From Effusibacillus dendaii (lineage in GTDB: Bacteria > Bacillota > Bacilli > Tumebacillales > Effusibacillaceae): a stretch of DNA of 64,000 nt. Shown in pieces: positions 13,212 through 47,325 of this stretch (its first letter is position 1; the number at the start of each line of letters is the position of its first letter). The DNA lies in NCBI RefSeq assembly GCF_015097055.1, contig NZ_AP023366.1, positions 2,374,001 through 2,438,000 on the forward strand, in the 5' to 3' direction. The position numbers and the translations under genes are program-made. The notes beneath the pieces are model-generated. The model saw nothing but the letters and a program-made list of their open reading frames with translations. It made no database searches and had not been told where the DNA came from.

Positions 13212-14972
13212 ATGTTTCGCAGCATCCGCAGCAAACTGGTGCTGATTTACCTTCTGCTCATTTTGTTCGCCATGCAGTTAATCGGCGTGTACTTTGTGAG
13301 GTCGGTCAACTCGTATTTCCTTGGAAATTTTTCGACAACAATCAACACACAGGCACGGTTTCTTTCCGCCCAATTGCAACAATACATGGGTAAGGAAATT
13401 ACAAATGATCTTGCGCAGGATATAAACAATCTAATCGGTGCGTTTGCTTCAGAATCGGAAATTTACGTTATTAACAAAAACGGGACAATAGTGGCTACCA
13501 CAGCCAATCGTTCCTACATAGGACAGAAACGGTTGCGGCCGGAGGTGACCCATGCATTGTCCGGTACAAAAGACGAGGTGATTCGTGAGGATGCCGGGTC
13601 GGGGCAGCGTTATACGTTTTTGTCGGTTCCCGTTAAAAACGGTTCGGAAGTGATTGGGGCGGTCTACATGGTTGCTCCCATGACGCAAATTTATAAAACG
13701 GTGAAAGAGATAAACATGATGTTTTATACCGGATTGGTAATCGCACTTGTTCTCACTGCGGTGTTGGGTGTCGCTTTGGCACAAACCATCACCAATCCGA
13801 TTGTTGAGATTACCAGGAAAGCGAATGCGATGGCCAAAGGGGATTACCACCAAACGGTAGTCATAAGAAGCGATGATGAGATCGGTCAGTTGGGAGAAGC
13901 GTTTAATTTTCTCGTCGAACGGTTGCGCAGCGCGCTTTTTGAAAATGAGCAAGAGCGCCAGAAACTGGAGGCTATTTTAACTCATTTGAGTGATGGAGTG
14001 ATCGCTGTCGATTCGCAACGGATCGTATTGTTGGTCAATCCAACAGCCAAATATCTGTTGGGCTGTGAGGAAGATCCGGTTGGCCAGCCGCTGTCCAGTA
14101 TTTTGAAGAGCGAAACGGATGGAGACAGCCGATTGCTGTCTGGTCGGGAACTGCAGTTTGCCGGGCCAAATGGACGGATTTTGCAGGCGTACGGATCGGC
14201 GCTGCGGGGGGATCAGGGGCAGGCGGGATTTGCGATTGTGATTCGGGATGTGACGGAAACGGAACGGGAGGAACAGAGCCGTCGCGATTTTATTGCGAAT
14301 GTATCGCACGAAATTCGAACGCCGCTGACGACCATTAAAAGTTATGTGGAAGCGCTCAACAGTGGGGCAGATGAGGACCCGTCGCTGCGCAAAAGGTTTC
14401 TGCAGGTAATTGGGAACGAAACGGACCGAATTGTCCGCATGGTCAGTGAACTGCTCCATTTATCCCGAATGGATGCGGGAAAAGCGCAATGGTCGTATCA
14501 GTCGACCGATCTGGTGCGTCTATTGGACGATGTGGCGGACCGGTTTGCGATTCAGTGCAGGGAAAGAGAAATTTCGTTGTATGTGGAAGCAGGCCCCAAT
14601 CTGCCGCAGGTCTGGGCCGATCCGGACAAGCTGGACCAAGTCTTGGACAATCTGGTATCCAATGCAATCATGCATACGTCAGCAAGGGGCAGTATTCATC
14701 TGGCTGCCAAGGTGAAAGACGATCAGTTGGAAATCATGGTCAAGGACACGGGGATGGGGATACCAGCCGCTCATCTCCCCCGCATTTTCGAACGATTCTA
14801 CCGCGTGGATAAAGCACGTTCGCGAAGTTTGGGCGGAAGTGGACTGGGATTGTCGATTGCCAAACAGATTATCCAGGCGCATGGCGGCAAAATTTGGTTG
14901 GAAAGCGCTCTGCAGAAAGGGACGACCGTGTTCTTCACGCTGCCTCTTGCGAAACAGGAGGCGGTCGGATGA
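13212..14972 (+). CDS. walK: Sensor histidine kinase of cell-wall homeostasis
   Basis: 586 residues: membrane helix (about 7-29), extracellular sensing domain, second helix (about 173-195), HAMP, PAS, then DHp with phospho-acceptor His366 in NVSHEIRTPL, and an ATPase domain with N box (DNLVSNAIMHT), G1 (VKDTGMGIP), F box and G2 (GGSGLGLSIA). Partner of WalR. Four bases follow the walR stop; its own stop overlaps the walH start (ATGA). Confidence 0.96.
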   Translation: MFRSIRSKLVLIYLLLILFAMQLIGVYFVRSVNSYFLGNFSTTINTQARFLSAQLQQYMGKEITNDLAQDINNLIGAFASESEIYVINKNGTIVATTANRSYIGQKRLRPEVTHALSGTKDEVIREDAGSGQRYTFLSVPVKNGSEVIGAVYMVAPMTQIYKTVKEINMMFYTGLVIALVLTAVLGVALAQTITNPIVEITRKANAMAKGDYHQTVVIRSDDEIGQLGEAFNFLVERLRSALFENEQERQKLEAILTHLSDGVIAVDSQRIVLLVNPTAKYLLGCEEDPVGQPLSSILKSETDGDSRLLSGRELQFAGPNGRILQAYGSALRGDQGQAGFAIVIRDVTETEREEQSRRDFIANVSHEIRTPLTTIKSYVEALNSGADEDPSLRKRFLQVIGNETDRIVRMVSELLHLSRMDAGKAQWSYQSTDLVRLLDDVADRFAIQCREREISLYVEAGPNLPQVWADPDKLDQVLDNLVSNAIMHTSARGSIHLAAKVKDDQLEIMVKDTGMGIPAAHLPRIFERFYRVDKARSRSLGGSGLGLSIAKQIIQAHGGKIWLESALQKGTTVFFTLPLAKQEAVG

Positions 14973-16240
14973 ATCAAATGGGGGAACGGATCAAAGATGC
15001 TGCTTTGGTTTTGCTGGTCGCGCTGTCGTTAGTATTGACATTTGGACTATGGAACACGGCTCCGCCAGCCGAATGGGTCGACGCGGGAGGTTTCGTGCCA
15101 AACCCGGCATTTGGCTTTACCAAGAGCGTTGAGGAATTGCTGCGTCCGGATCAGGTCGAAGTGCGGCTGCCAGACCAATCGCTTACGTTGCTGACACCTT
15201 TCAGCGTTCCTTATGAAAAGGCTTGGGAGGCGCTGCGTAAGACAACCGCGGGTGAATGGGAACCGGTTCAGGAGGCAGCGGCGTTCCAGCAAAAAGTGGA
15301 CATGCTGCCGCACATTCACTTTCATTTTGGATTGGCGCTCACCGGCGAACAGCTTTCCAAAATCGTCAAAATGCCGGACCGAACTTCCACCCACGTGCAA
15401 GTCCGCTCGATCGTCATGTTTCAGGATACGGATGGATTCCACCTGTGGCTGACTGATGGGGGAACCACTGCCTGGCAGGCGACAATCGGGGGGCAATCCC
15501 CGCTTTTTGAGCAAATGGCACAGTGGGAGGCATTGCCTAAATATGAAAAAGAGGCCGGGAGCAGCGGGCCGATTTTTGTTCCGAAAGAAAATCTGCAGGT
15601 TCCTCTGGTGACATATGAAGTGATGAACCTACCGAGTGACTGGCTGGCGAGATCCTTTTTCGTCGATCCTACGCTGCCTCGCCGAATTCAGGAGCGGGAT
15701 GGTTCCGTATTGGTGACGGACGGCAATCGAACCGTGCAAATCGGTGCAGACGGGCAAGAGATCCGATACACATTTTCACTGCCGATGGAAGCGGAGTCGC
15801 CTGATTCTCTACCAGATGTGAAACTGCAGAGAGCGGTCTCGTTCGTGAATGATCATGGCGGCCTGCAAAACGCCTTTCTCGTGCAATCGGAAGAGTTTCC
15901 GGAAGGCAATCGCATATACCGATTTCGTTCGTATCGCAACGGATTGCCGATTGAGAGCGAACTGACAACGGTGGATGTTGCTTTGTCCGGCAATGAAGTG
16001 GTGGAGATGAAGCGGAATACGGTCTATTTGGGGGCGCAGTTGCAATCGGAGATGGCGGAAGTGAAGCCGCCGCCCGTGAAAGATTGGAAACAGGTCGGCA
16101 AAATGGAGCTGGTTTACGGTGCTATCCTGGCAAATGGCGAACTCCGTCTAAGGCCGGTTTGGAAGATCTCACATGTAGACCACTCACTCGCCGTATTTGA
16201 TGCAATAACGGGAGCAACCTGGCCAGGGCGGGAGGAATGA
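14969..16240 (+). CDS. walH: WalK regulator WalH (YycH family)
   Basis: 423 residues with one N-terminal membrane helix (ALVLLVALSLVLTFGLW) and a large extracellular domain. It begins at MNQMGERIKD within the walK stop, preceded by GGAGG. Sequence identity of YycH proteins is low; the assignment rests on topology, length and position. In Bacillus, WalH and WalI form a complex with WalK and restrain it. GC is slightly higher than in the neighbours but nothing suggests transfer. Confidence 0.9.
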   Translation: MNQMGERIKDAALVLLVALSLVLTFGLWNTAPPAEWVDAGGFVPNPAFGFTKSVEELLRPDQVEVRLPDQSLTLLTPFSVPYEKAWEALRKTTAGEWEPVQEAAAFQQKVDMLPHIHFHFGLALTGEQLSKIVKMPDRTSTHVQVRSIVMFQDTDGFHLWLTDGGTTAWQATIGGQSPLFEQMAQWEALPKYEKEAGSSGPIFVPKENLQVPLVTYEVMNLPSDWLARSFFVDPTLPRRIQERDGSVLVTDGNRTVQIGADGQEIRYTFSLPMEAESPDSLPDVKLQRAVSFVNDHGGLQNAFLVQSEEFPEGNRIYRFRSYRNGLPIESELTTVDVALSGNEVVEMKRNTVYLGAQLQSEMAEVKPPPVKDWKQVGKMELVYGAILANGELRLRPVWKISHVDHSLAVFDAITGATWPGREE

Positions 16241-40458: not shown

Positions 40459-41501
40459 TCATCTGCCGGTACGTTCAGATGGACTGCGCAGGAAAGAAGC
40501 GGCTAATGCGAATAGCGTAGTGATCAACATGACCGTAAACGCCATATGGTAGCCGTTGATCACAAGGCCAATATCGTTCGGTTGAAGGTTCGCGATTTGC
40601 TCCTTTGAAAAAACAATGCAATCAGCAGAACGACGGAGGCGCGGGCCAGAGAATTTAAAAATGCGGTCAAATTTGCCATCGCATAAGCACGGTCTCGGAA
40701 CAAACCAAAATCGATCAAGGGGTCTTTCGCATGCCATTCGACCCAAATAAAACAGGGAGTAAATACGCAAAACAGGACAAACCCCAGGATGACAGGCCAA
40801 CTGTTCCATCCCAAAACGCCTTCTTCCGAGAAGGCAAGGATGAGTCCGCCAAGCAGCAGGAAGACCACCGCAATTCCCCGTAAGTCCACTTTTTCGGTAT
40901 GTGATCTTTGAGGGACAGGCCGCAGCGTAACAATCCCCCAAATGACGCCGGTCACTCCAACCGGCACATTAAACCAGAACACCCACTGCCAACCGAAGGA
41001 AGCAGCCAGCCAACCTCCGATGGAGGGCCCGAGCAATTGTCCGATCGAACTGATCAATACGTTGATGCCCAATCCGGTTCCCAACAAACGTTCCGGAAAC
41101 GCATCTGTGATCAAGGCAGTCGTGTTGCTGATGATGAGCGCACCACCTGCCGCCTGCAAGGCGCGTAGTCCAATCAAGACCCAAACATTCGGTGAAAATC
41201 CGATTAAGAAACTGACGACGGTGAAGCCGACAAACCCGGTCAAATATAAATTGCGGTGCCCATAAATGTCAGCAAGACGTCCGAATACCAGAATTAAAAT
41301 CGTGCTGAACAACATATAGGAGAGCAGAATCCAACTGGCAGTTACGGCAGTTGCATGAAAATGCTGCGCTACCTCCGGAAGAGCTACATTCAGTGTACCG
41401 TTGTGAAGAGCTGTCAGTATCACCCCTAAACTGGTAACGGACAGCAGCAGCCAGGGATAAAGCCGGTCGGATGCACTGGAATGATGTGCAAGAACTCTCA
41501 T
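40459..41501 (-). pseudogene. DHA2-type (14-helix) MFS drug transporter with internal deletion
   Basis: The first ~300 residues are normal (SVTSLGVILTALHNGTLNVALPEV, motif A GRLADIYGHRNLY, motif C GPSIGGWLAASFGWQWVFWFNVPVG). In the ninth or tenth helix, LLIALFFQ is followed by unrelated residues and a stop at 40560. The normal C-terminus (DIGLVINGYHMAFTVMLITTLFALAASFL) appears in another frame up to 40459. About 100 residues are missing. Multidrug efflux is presumed lost. Confidence 0.75.
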
Positions 41502-43337: not shown

Positions 43338-43358
43338 TTGGATGGAGGTGAAAAACGG

Positions 43359-43649
43359 ATGAATACCATTATTGAAAACTTGATCGGAATGAACACCCTG
43401 ACCGATCAAGTGATTGCGACCGATTTATTGATCGCGGCAAAAACCGGGGTAAGAAATTGCGCTGCGGCAGTAACGGAAGCCGCAACCCCCGAAGTCAGAT
43501 CGGTTCTGCGCAATCAGTTAAAAGAAGCCATTGAGTTGCATGAGGAGATCACCCAATTCATGATGAGCAGGGGCTGGTACCATCCCTACAATCCAAATGA
43601 ACAAATTCAATTGGATTTGACCAATGCGGAGACGGCGCTCAACGTTTAA
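43359..43649 (+). CDS. CotF-family spore coat protein
   Basis: 96 residues, four-helix-like domain: TDQVIATDLLIAAKTGVRNCAAAVTEAATPEVRSVLRNQL...EITQFMMSRGWYHPYNPNEQ. The MxxRGWYHPYNxNEQ ending is the CotF signature. GGAGGTG upstream of ATG 43359. Expected to be expressed late in the mother cell; promoter not defined. Followed by a terminator. Confidence 0.85.
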   Translation: MNTIIENLIGMNTLTDQVIATDLLIAAKTGVRNCAAAVTEAATPEVRSVLRNQLKEAIELHEEITQFMMSRGWYHPYNPNEQIQLDLTNAETALNV

Positions 43650-43735: not shown

Positions 43736-43966
43736 GTCGATTGGAATTTATAAATTTTCTTTACCTCCGAGAGGTTAACCCCCATTCGTTATAGTCAACC
43801 CATCCACATTTATTCCACATTTGTTTGGTAACTTTAATAGATCATAGATAGAGAGGTTCTGGGAGTGCCGTTTGGGACTTTACAAGGGATTTACATGAAA
43901 TTGGCGAATGCCAGATAAGAAGTTCACAGGTCCAGGGATTTAGCAATGCGGAGTGAGGAGAGCCGA

Positions 43967-44386
43967 ATGGAACACGACAAACGTTTAATTTTTATTGTTG
44001 ACGACGATTCGAACGTGCGTGAAATTATGCAGGCGTATTTGCAGGCGGAAGGATATGAGGTACATACATTTGAACGTGCTGAATCCGTATGGGAAGTCTG
44101 GTCCGACCTTCCTCCTGATCTCGTTATATTGGATATCATGATGCCCGGAATGGATGGATATGAGATGTGTCGGACGATACAGGCTAAAAGTATGGTTCCC
44201 ATCATCATGGTGTCAGCCAAAGACAATGAAGTAGACAAAATCGTGGGTCTTGAACTCGGTTCCGATGACTATCTGTCAAAGCCGTTTTCGCCTCGGGAAT
44301 TGGTGGCACAGGTGAAAACGCTGTTTCGCAGAATTGATGTAATGGCTGGCGATGCGGGAAACGGAACCGGTCGGCAGGAAATGTAG
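43967..44386 (+). pseudogene. Response regulator without output domain
   Basis: A complete receiver: FIVDDDSN, phospho-Asp in VILDIMMPGMDGYEMC, MVSAKDNE, SKPFSPRELVAQVKTLFRR. OmpR-type regulators continue with a winged helix, but here the text ends 13 residues later (VMAGDAGNGTGRQEM). The next frame is a histidine kinase fragment that has lost its start. A single deletion removing the DNA-binding domain and the kinase N-terminus explains both. Could still act as a stand-alone receiver. Confidence 0.65.
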
Positions 44387-44407
44387 CGGACTATACGAAC
44401 AGGTGAT

Positions 44408-44782
44408 TTGTTTGTCAATCTGGATGAAAAACAGGTAGAGGGAAAACAGGAGTTGGCTGGCAGGGACGTTGTTTATGTTGTCATACCCGTTAATTTTGGA
44501 GGGGGTGTGCAGGCACCCGATGCGCTTGTCCTTTTTACGGGGCTGCAAAATTTGCGCGATGCGACGGGTTATCTGCTGGTGGTTTTGCTGCAGGGATTTG
44601 TGATTACAGCAGTAATCATGCTGTTTATCGCATATGGAATGATGCGGTCGGTAACAAGACCTCTGAAGATTTTGCAGGATGCGGAAAAACGGTTGGAAAG
44701 TCTCGTTCTGCAATCATCCGGGACGATGGGGGAGCCCGGTTTGTCATCAGGTTACCGATTGTTCAGAACGAAAACAGACCAA
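44408..44782 (+). pseudogene. Sensor histidine kinase with both N-terminus and catalytic core deleted
   Basis: It retains the end of an extracellular domain (AGRDVVYVVIPVNFGGG), one membrane helix (LVVLLQGFVITAVIMLFIAYG), and a HAMP start (MMRSVTRPLKILQDAEKRL). It then jumps at about 44715 to the last residues of a kinase ATPase domain in another frame (GGARFVIRLPIVQNENRPT, stop about 44782). The phospho-acceptor His and ATP-binding boxes are missing. Confidence 0.7.
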
Positions 44783-44797
44783 CATAATGTAAAAAAA

Positions 44798-44869
44798 ATA
44801 CATGGAAACCTCCTTTTTTGCAAAAAGTAACAACAGATTGAAATTGTGCTTGAGGGAGGTTTCTTGTAT
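44798..44869 (+). promoter_or_regulatory. Leader hairpin that hides the ribosome site of the 55-residue gene
   Basis: GAAACCTCC (44805-44813) is the exact complement of GGAGGTTTC (44855-44863), which contains the ribosome site. ATACA (44798-44802) can extend the stem with TGTAT (44865-44869), covering the first bases of the start codon. The 41-base loop is AT-rich. The fold would block translation until opened. Confidence 0.6.
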
Positions 44870-45035
44870 GAAGGACCAACAGAACCGAATAAACAAACAA
44901 AAGCAGCAGAAAAAGCATGGAGATAACGGCAACAAAGAGGAGTTTGAAAGAGATAACGTGAGCGCCACAGTGTCACCGTTTGCACTGGATACGGATGCCG
45001 AATCGGCTGGCTCCATATCACCAGTCGACCGATAA
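44868..45035 (+). CDS. Small hydrophilic protein upstream of the amino-acid permease
   Basis: 55 residues: a Gln/Lys-rich first half (KDQQNRINKQKQQKKHGDNG) and an acidic/Ser-rich second half. Likely disordered; no family recognised. GGGAGG is about 9 bases before ATG 44868 but lies in a hairpin. The stop is two bases before the permease start, so it may serve as a leader peptide coupling permease translation. Confidence 0.5.
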   Translation: MKDQQNRINKQKQQKKHGDNGNKEEFERDNVSATVSPFALDTDAESAGSISPVDR

Positions 45036-45037
45036 CG

Positions 45038-46486
45038 ATGCCGATGTTTGATCAAAAATCAGCTAAACGGGGAGCGCTTGGCTGTTCGGCCAAAGTTCCC
45101 CGGATTCAGATTGGGCAGGTAGCGGACCAGGGCGCAGGACAAAAACCAAAAGGTAATTTAAAGGCGAGTACACTGGCGATGATCGGGGTGGGAGGAATCG
45201 TGGGGGCCGGGTACTTTCTCGGTTCCGGATTGTCTATTTCAGTCGCTGGCCCGGGAGTTTTATTGGCCTACATTTTAGGGGCGTTTATCATGTCACAAGT
45301 ACTCGGGGCGATGGTGTCGATCAGCGCGGCACATCCGGTTCAGGGTTCTTTCCGCGTGTACGCGGAGCAGACAATGGGTCCCTACATTGGGTATGTACTC
45401 GGATGGCTGTTTTGGATGAGTGGCATTCTTGGAATCGGCAGTGAAGCGGTGGCTATGGGTATATTTTCGCGGGTATGGTGGCCTCATATTCCGCTTTGGA
45501 TATTGTCGGCCGCCTATGCAGCGATTATTTTTCTGTTAAACGCGTTTGGCGTGAAGAATTTCGGACGGATCGAGAGTCTGATGTCGATCATTAAGATTTC
45601 CGCTTTGGTTGGATTTATAATAGCGGTGGTCCTGGCGGTTACGGGACTTTTGCCCGCGCCAGGGATGGTCGGATGGCGGGGAATCACCGCATACGGAGGA
45701 TTTCTTCCGCATGGCTGGAACGGAGTCTTTCAGTCGATGCTGTGGGTGATTTTTTCTTACAGCGGCATTGGTGCGGTCGCTATGGCCAGTTCGGAAGTGG
45801 AGCGTCCTGAGAAAACGATAAATCAAGCGGCTGTGGCCGTGGTAACGATCATTTTAGGGTTGTATCTGCTAGCGACGATCGGGTTATTTCTGCTGAAACC
45901 ATGGCAAAGTTACAACGCGGACGTCAGCCCGTTTGTGGCGGCGCTTTCAGCCATTCAAATTCCGTTTGCTGGGCCGATTTTAAACGTAGTAATCTTAATC
46001 AGCGCGTTTTCGGTGATGGCAAGTTCCGTATTTTCAGTAACGGTGATGCTGCAAAGTCTGGGGTCATCCGGGTATGCACCTTCTTTTTTGACCCAATTAG
46101 ACAGGCGCGGCGTCCCTATTCGGGCGCTGCTTGTTTCAGCGACTGGCGTGGCGCTGACGATCGTGCTGTCCTATTTGCTGCCCTCCCGAGTGTATTCGTA
46201 TTTGGCGAGTGTATGCGGATTTATCACGTTTTTTAACTGGACCGTCAACCTCCTGACGCTCGTGAAATGGATCAAGGAGAAAGAACCCTCTCTGCCAAAA
46301 TCGGTTCTCGCCTGGGGGGCGCCTTACACGTCATGGCTGGTAATGGTGCTGATTGTGGTACTCACTGTGTACTCTTTGGAAATTCGAGATCAGCGAATGG
46401 GATTTTACTTTGCGTTACTTTTTTATTGCATTGTCAGTTTCTCTTATGTGCTTGTGCGGAAAAGAAGAAAACAGCAAGCGGGGTAA
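45038..46486 (+). CDS. Amino-acid permease (APC family)
   Basis: 482 residues, twelve membrane helices after a ~40-residue polar N-terminus. Helix I carries TLAMIGVGGIVGAGYFLGSG, the substrate/ion motif of amino-acid/H+ symporters of the AAT group (YbxG/AapA/GabP-like), and AYGGFLPHGWNGVFQSM plus YSGIGAVAMASSEVERPEKTI follow. Substrate not determinable. No ribosome site of its own is seen before ATG 45038 (or 45044), so translation probably depends on the 55-residue upstream gene. Confidence 0.88.
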   Translation: MPMFDQKSAKRGALGCSAKVPRIQIGQVADQGAGQKPKGNLKASTLAMIGVGGIVGAGYFLGSGLSISVAGPGVLLAYILGAFIMSQVLGAMVSISAAHPVQGSFRVYAEQTMGPYIGYVLGWLFWMSGILGIGSEAVAMGIFSRVWWPHIPLWILSAAYAAIIFLLNAFGVKNFGRIESLMSIIKISALVGFIIAVVLAVTGLLPAPGMVGWRGITAYGGFLPHGWNGVFQSMLWVIFSYSGIGAVAMASSEVERPEKTINQAAVAVVTIILGLYLLATIGLFLLKPWQSYNADVSPFVAALSAIQIPFAGPILNVVILISAFSVMASSVFSVTVMLQSLGSSGYAPSFLTQLDRRGVPIRALLVSATGVALTIVLSYLLPSRVYSYLASVCGFITFFNWTVNLLTLVKWIKEKEPSLPKSVLAWGAPYTSWLVMVLIVVLTVYSLEIRDQRMGFYFALLFYCIVSFSYVLVRKRRKQQAG

Positions 46487-46770: not shown

Positions 46771-47205
46771 TTAGCAGGGATTGCTTGGCGGTGGACAGCA
46801 GTGGTCAATGCAATGTTCGCAGCACTCGTTGCTCGCTGTGTGCGGATATTCGCAGTAATATTCATAAATATTATGATGCACGTTTTTCGTATGGGTCGGA
46901 TATACGTTGATGACCGGGAAGCGGGTGGTTGTATGCCTTTCGATAATGCGGGTCGGGTGTACGATGCGGCGGACGGGGGCAACCGTGACCGGCATACCCA
47001 TTGGAAAACCAGGCAGAGCAGCGGCTGGGGCCATTCCCACTGGCGGAACAGCAGGAACTCCCGCAGCAACAGGGGCTGTTGGAACAGCAGGGGTAACGCC
47101 GGGAGTTGCCCACGGTTGAACGGGCGCGCCGGGAACTGCCCATGGCTGAACCTGACCAGGGACACCTGGATAACCGGCTATTTGACGAGTCGAATCTTTT
47201 TTCAA
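46771..47205 (-). CDS. CotD-type spore coat protein with a Pro/Ala/Val-rich N-terminal extension
   Basis: 144 residues. The C-terminal part, VRRIVHPTRIIERHTTTRFPVINVYPTHTKNVHHNIYEYYCEYPHT, follows the CotD pattern (VHPT...xxPxHTxxVxHxxY...PHT) and ends in a Cys-rich ECCEHCIDHCCPPP tail. The N-terminal ~75 residues are PWAVPG/PWATPG and APVAAGVPAVPPVG low-complexity units not found in B. subtilis CotD. Start TTG at 47205, six bases after GGAGGAG; the ATG at 47301 has no site. Monocistronic. Confidence 0.75.
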   Translation of the reverse strand: MKKDSTRQIAGYPGVPGQVQPWAVPGAPVQPWATPGVTPAVPTAPVAAGVPAVPPVGMAPAAALPGFPMGMPVTVAPVRRIVHPTRIIERHTTTRFPVINVYPTHTKNVHHNIYEYYCEYPHTASNECCEHCIDHCCPPPSNPC

Positions 47206-47325
47206 CAGAATCTCCTCCTTCTGTGCGTATACACTATAGTTGTATGAGTACCCATCCGCATTTGCCGTAGTCAAAGGTCTATTTTGCAGGAAGATAGACA
47301 TTTATCCATTCTGATTCGGTTCAAG

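Follow-up and report, generated by a model that had tools for sequence, protein, structure and literature searches.

A hairpin predicted to mask the Shine-Dalgarno sequence of a small gene ahead of an amino-acid permease in Effusibacillus dendaii

Architecture of the locus

The locus lies in a 64,000-nucleotide stretch of the Effusibacillus dendaii genome (contig NZ_AP023366.1, positions 2,374,001 to 2,438,000), which we refer to as the window and from whose first base all coordinates are counted unless another contig is named. The genome comprises 3.45 Mb in one contig, and the G+C content of the window is 47.7%, against a published value of 48.2% for the species (PMC8502169). The features are as follows.

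43946-44787, plus strand: decayed two-component system, comprising the receiver of a response regulator, a kinase TM2-HAMP piece and the C-terminal end of the kinase
44783-44791, plus strand: weak sigma-K-like -10 resemblance, CATAATGTA, from which a transcript would start near 44795-44798, at the 5' arm
44798-44813, plus strand: 5' arm (anti-SD strand) of the hairpin, from sequence and folding, with ATACA at 44798-44802, a TG bulge and GAAACCTCC at 44805-44813
44814-44854, plus strand: hairpin loop, 41 nt, with no known RNA motif
44854-44859, plus strand: Shine-Dalgarno (SD) sequence of the small gene, GGGAGG, more than 99.9% paired in prediction
44855-44869, plus strand: 3' arm, with GGAGGTTTC at 44855-44863, a T and TGTAT at 44865-44869, containing the SD core and reaching two bases into the start codon
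44868-45035, plus strand: 55-codon gene for a hydrophilic protein with the C-terminal motif SPFALDxDAES, with a homologue in the genome G009, a motif in which most changes are silent, and coding-like codon use
45038-46486, plus strand: amino-acid permease (PF00324) without an SD, starting 2 nt after the small-gene stop (TAA CG ATG)

The small gene and the permease are flanked by spore-coat genes, with a Coat_F-domain gene upstream (43338-43649, plus strand) and a CotD-like gene downstream (46771-47301, minus strand). The two-component system has been reduced by two internal deletions: the response regulator has lost its DNA-binding domain but retains the receiver, and what is left of the kinase is a middle piece with TM2 and HAMP plus the last residues, in a frame ending at 44787. 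Intact versions were found in two genomes of the same genus (G001 and G002) and in G007, where other genes come next, neither the small gene nor the permease among them. Because this neighbouring operon has decayed, the region may be under weak selection. The E. dendaii assembly is PacBio-only (PMC8502169), so single-base frameshifts nearby need caution, a caveat of which the large two-component deletions are independent. An MFS-type transporter at 40459-41501 on the minus strand appears to be split over two overlapping frames by a frameshift or an assembly error.

The small gene and the probably coupled permease

The 55-codon gene begins with ATG at 44868-44870, 8 nt past its SD, and ends with TAA at 45033-45035. 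Its own frame has a codon-use log-odds of 1.7, against -12.9 and -19.0 for the other forward frames. We found one distant homologue, a 60-residue protein in a genome of the same order (G009; E 9e-5). Over the 20 codons between the start of SPFALD and the stop, the two sequences can be aligned gap-free (4 codons identical, 9 silently changed and 7 replaced) and their stops coincide; these mostly silent changes and aligned stops indicate a genuine gene under selection as a protein. No family model matches the small protein, and no homologue beyond G009 was found in phages, plasmids, viral contigs or the 398-genome class and phylum samples; weak matches in L044-L046 were discarded, as they are located in unrelated frames.

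The family, which can be written SPFALDxDAESxxSxSP, was thus seen in just two genomes of the order, the G009 copy lying on the reverse strand of L038 at about 1447-1629. Both members sit 70-80 nt past the end of a histidine kinase gene, and the two kinases are unrelated. We rejected a tie between the small gene and one kinase: that of G009 is of another type, and its homologues elsewhere have no such gene after them.

The permease matches PF00324 with 261.8 bits (gathering score 24.6), and its best NCBIfam model is that of a GABA permease, for which it scores far under the cut-off. Its closest relatives among 41 genomes share at most 48% identity, and in none of those read is the small gene found ahead of the permease; a genome-collection scan with the permease returned only distant relatives, from other phyla. 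The first-pass annotation had described a permease without a ribosome site that starts two bases past the small-gene stop, and the coordinates agree. Unlike the permease here, its relatives in L003-L007 are preceded by an SD. A downstream start near an upstream stop and the lack of a separate SD are the hallmarks of translational coupling, and from the missing SD and the adjacent stop we consider the permease probably coupled to the small gene.

A predicted hairpin over the ribosome-binding site

The hairpin sits in the 80-nt gap between the end of the kinase remnant (44787) and the small gene. Its inner stem pairs GAAACCTCC (44805-44813) exactly with GGAGGTTTC (44855-44863), and its outer stem pairs ATACA (44798-44802) with TGTAT (44865-44869). 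In folding, which was computed throughout on isolated RNA, the inner stem reaches 13 continuous pairs by way of G-U and A-U pairs, and the leader has a predicted minimum free energy of -24.2 kcal/mol (z -2.6), with the SD wholly within the stem. The nine-nucleotide arms, the ATACA/TGTAT stem running into the start codon and the 41-base loop are all placed as the first-pass annotation had them, and its masked SD is borne out by the sequence and by predicted folding. With its SD predicted to pair with an upstream segment, the leader would be of the RBS-occluding kind.

The symmetry of the repeat also produces, on the minus strand (44747-44820), AAAAAAGGAGG-TTTCC-ATG, which opens an 18-codon hydrophobic frame, MYFFYIMLVCFRSEQSVT; this frame is probably fortuitous.

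The same sequence can be read at the DNA level, as an inverted repeat (14 pairs, interrupted by a small internal loop) whose arms are the half-sites of a regulator, the overlap with the SD being incidental. Half-sites about 50 bp apart would be unusual, the SD and start codon overlap one of the arms, and in compact form the pattern recurs at just one other place in the genome, all of which make this reading very improbable.

E. dendaii is a thermophile that grows at 35-55 °C and best at 44-55 °C (PMC8502169), which raises the idea of an RNA thermometer whose stem is melted by heat. We folded the leader at 25-65 °C, and the probability of an unpaired SD rose from 0.001 at 37 °C to 0.006 at 55 °C and just 0.012 at 65 °C. 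Since the SD is predicted to stay shut beyond the growth range, a simple thermosensor is rejected, and we regard any thermometer as scarcely credible.

How exceptional the predicted masking is

For comparison we collected 954 SD-bearing genes from 1.26 Mb sampled from the same genome, using simple ORF and SD rules. The SD of the small gene ranks last of all in unpaired probability (0.0005), and its opening energy of 13.65 kcal/mol is exceeded by that of just one gene. A 9-bp Watson-Crick helix on the SD occurs in one other gene of the set, whose site is predicted to be fairly open (0.20). When the leader alone was shuffled with dinucleotides preserved, the SD and the coding side being held fixed, none of 3000 shuffled leaders gave an SD opening energy as high as the real one (z 5.6).

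The sixth least accessible SD of the 954 belongs to the sigG gene of this genome (L148, 10105-10884, minus strand), over which a ten-pair stem is predicted. Its high rank is an unplanned positive control and agrees with the RBS hairpin reported for Bacilli. Strongly masked SDs were also seen for an L147 gene (15288-16286, minus strand), which has the top SD opening energy (16.9 kcal/mol), and for the window gene at 14969-16240.

For any one gene, masking of this order is very unlikely to arise by chance, as these two controls indicate. About one equal case could nonetheless turn up in a genome with a few thousand genes, and we therefore retain chance complementarity as a rival, in which the pyrimidine-rich stretch past the dead kinase gene happens to fit the SD and has no role. 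GGAGG is common to most SDs, helices of 7-8 bp cover the SDs of about 2% of genes in this sample, the adjoining operon is decaying, and the leader is in none of 61 related genomes. Against these points stand the lowest accessibility among 954 genes and the failure of all 3000 shuffles, and on balance we think the pairing unlikely to be accidental.

Transcript starts and promoters

The predicted state of the SD depends on where the RNA begins. For starts between 44600 and 44808 its unpaired probability is 0.001-0.002, whereas for starts at or after 44814, where the 5' arm is absent, it is about 0.55 and the site is open. No terminator-like site was found on the plus strand between the two-component remnant and the small gene with its hairpin.

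We scored promoter resemblances to the consensus sequences of nine sigma types, with 400 shuffles for comparison. The best was the sigma-K-like CATAATGTA, equalled by 11 of 400 shuffles before correction and not significant after nine trials; RNA starting from it would carry the 5' arm, with the SD still masked. We found no convincing promoter starting in the loop, where ECF-like and sigma-F-like resemblances were matched by 64 and 184 of the 400 shuffles, respectively.

Among the closest known cases is sigG (spoIIIG) of B. subtilis. Its RBS hairpin, which is predicted in many Bacilli and has been tested by experiment, reduces translation 2-4-fold; a second, larger hairpin is suggested to prevent the translation of RNA reading through from the operon upstream (PMC5942855). 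As there, the organism is a spore-former, the hairpin pairs with the SD and a co-directional operon lies upstream (PMC5942855). In B. subtilis a sigma factor is the target, its promoter has been mapped and the small hairpin is widespread in Bacilli, whereas here the target would be a small gene that matches no family model, together with a permease.

This precedent bears on two more specific readings. In one, a special case of the explanation we prefer, the hairpin would keep RNAs from the upstream operon untranslated while transcripts from a dedicated promoter start inside the loop, an arrangement like that of T4 gene e and of the large hairpin suggested for B. subtilis sigG. The predicted loss of the mask in RNAs starting at or after 44814, the co-directional operon with no terminator-like site in between and the same upstream layout in B. 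subtilis sigG (PMC5942855) all speak for it. The loop-start promoter resemblances are weak, as the shuffles indicate, and the upstream operon is now broken, so that we rate this reading as possible, if doubtful. Folding predicts the free SD that it needs once the 5' arm is gone; for its own promoter, starting between the arms, only weak resemblances no better than shuffled sequence were found, and the subtype is unproven. A transcript start downstream of 44813 would make the hairpin such a shield, since RNAs from 44814 on have an open SD.

In the other, a general form of the idea in the first-pass annotation, the gene pair would have a transcript of its own that begins near 44795 and in every case includes the hairpin, which would either dampen translation constantly or yield to a protein, small RNA or ligand able to open it. 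In its favour, transcription from the best promoter resemblance would begin at the 5' arm, the locus is flanked by spore-coat genes, and in B. subtilis sigG the small hairpin dampens translation within its own RNA (PMC5942855). The stem here is far stronger than the sigG dampeners (-6 to -9 kcal/mol), so that translation would be nearly blocked, no ligand motif was found, and the promoter match is not significant after nine trials. We judge this arrangement rather unlikely.

Ligand control and conservation

The leader has no Rfam match at the gathering score or up to E 5, such as a known riboswitch would give, and no known ligand-responsive motif, for which the first-pass annotation suggested searching the loop, was found. 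A search with the leader DNA in 61 related genomes found no relative that carries it and none usable for covariation. The G009 homologue has a different upstream hairpin and an SD of ordinary accessibility, and was discarded as a case of structural conservation. The translational control proposed at first pass consequently divides: the masked SD and the dependence of the SD-less permease on the small gene hold up on sequence and folding, whereas a response to amino acids finds no Rfam match to E 5 and no conserved leader. Amino-acid-responsive control is unsupported.

A model for control of the gene pair

With moderate confidence, we propose that in RNA that includes the 5' arm the hairpin silences or dampens the small gene by occluding its ribosome-binding site and, through coupling, the permease. 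In such RNA, arising by read-through from the old two-component operon or from a start at about 44795, the SD would be paired and initiation strongly reduced. The permease would be translated mainly by ribosomes finishing the small gene and, because it lacks an SD and starts 2 nt past the small-gene stop, would be turned down together with it. Full translation would require that the transcript begin inside the loop or that some factor open the stem. We infer folding of this kind in the cell, translational coupling of the two genes and the existence of either a second transcript start or an opening factor.

The rank of the SD, the 0/3000 shuffles, the selection on the small gene, the SD-less permease, the lack of an upstream terminator-like site and the sixth place of sigG argue for this mechanism. 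The ordinary SD of the single homologue, the lack of a significant loop promoter, the decayed neighbouring operon and the absence of the leader from the 61 related genomes argue against it. In a bolder version, this spore-former would hold an undescribed small protein and a coupled permease behind a hairpin that opens solely in a single cell type or on binding of some ligand, so that translational control would link amino-acid uptake to sporulation; this seems to us improbable.

Comparison with other systems

Control of this kind is already known; we found no earlier description of this gene pair in the literature. In phage T4, the long RNAs of gene e, soc, 49 and I-TevI form a stable helix over the SD and/or the start codon (PMC3014915, PMC2988022), and there, as is predicted here, taking away the 5' strand frees the SD. 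The T4 late promoters are mapped inside the 5' strand, where none was found in our leader, and the present locus is chromosomal rather than phage-borne. Salmonella mgtQ-mgtB likewise has a short ORF just ahead of a transporter gene, with RNA structure setting transporter translation (PMC8092293). That system differs in needing translation-aborting acidic codons in the short ORF and in having alternative stem-loops that overlap the ORF (PMC8092293), whereas here the SD of the short ORF itself is masked and the transporter is apparently coupled via the adjacent stop codon.

If the model is true, a small-protein/transporter pair joins the small set of chromosomal genes in bacteria that an RBS hairpin guards. 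The model would also suggest that a genome-wide ranking of SD accessibility can pick out such genes, since the ranking placed sigG, proven in B. subtilis, near the top.
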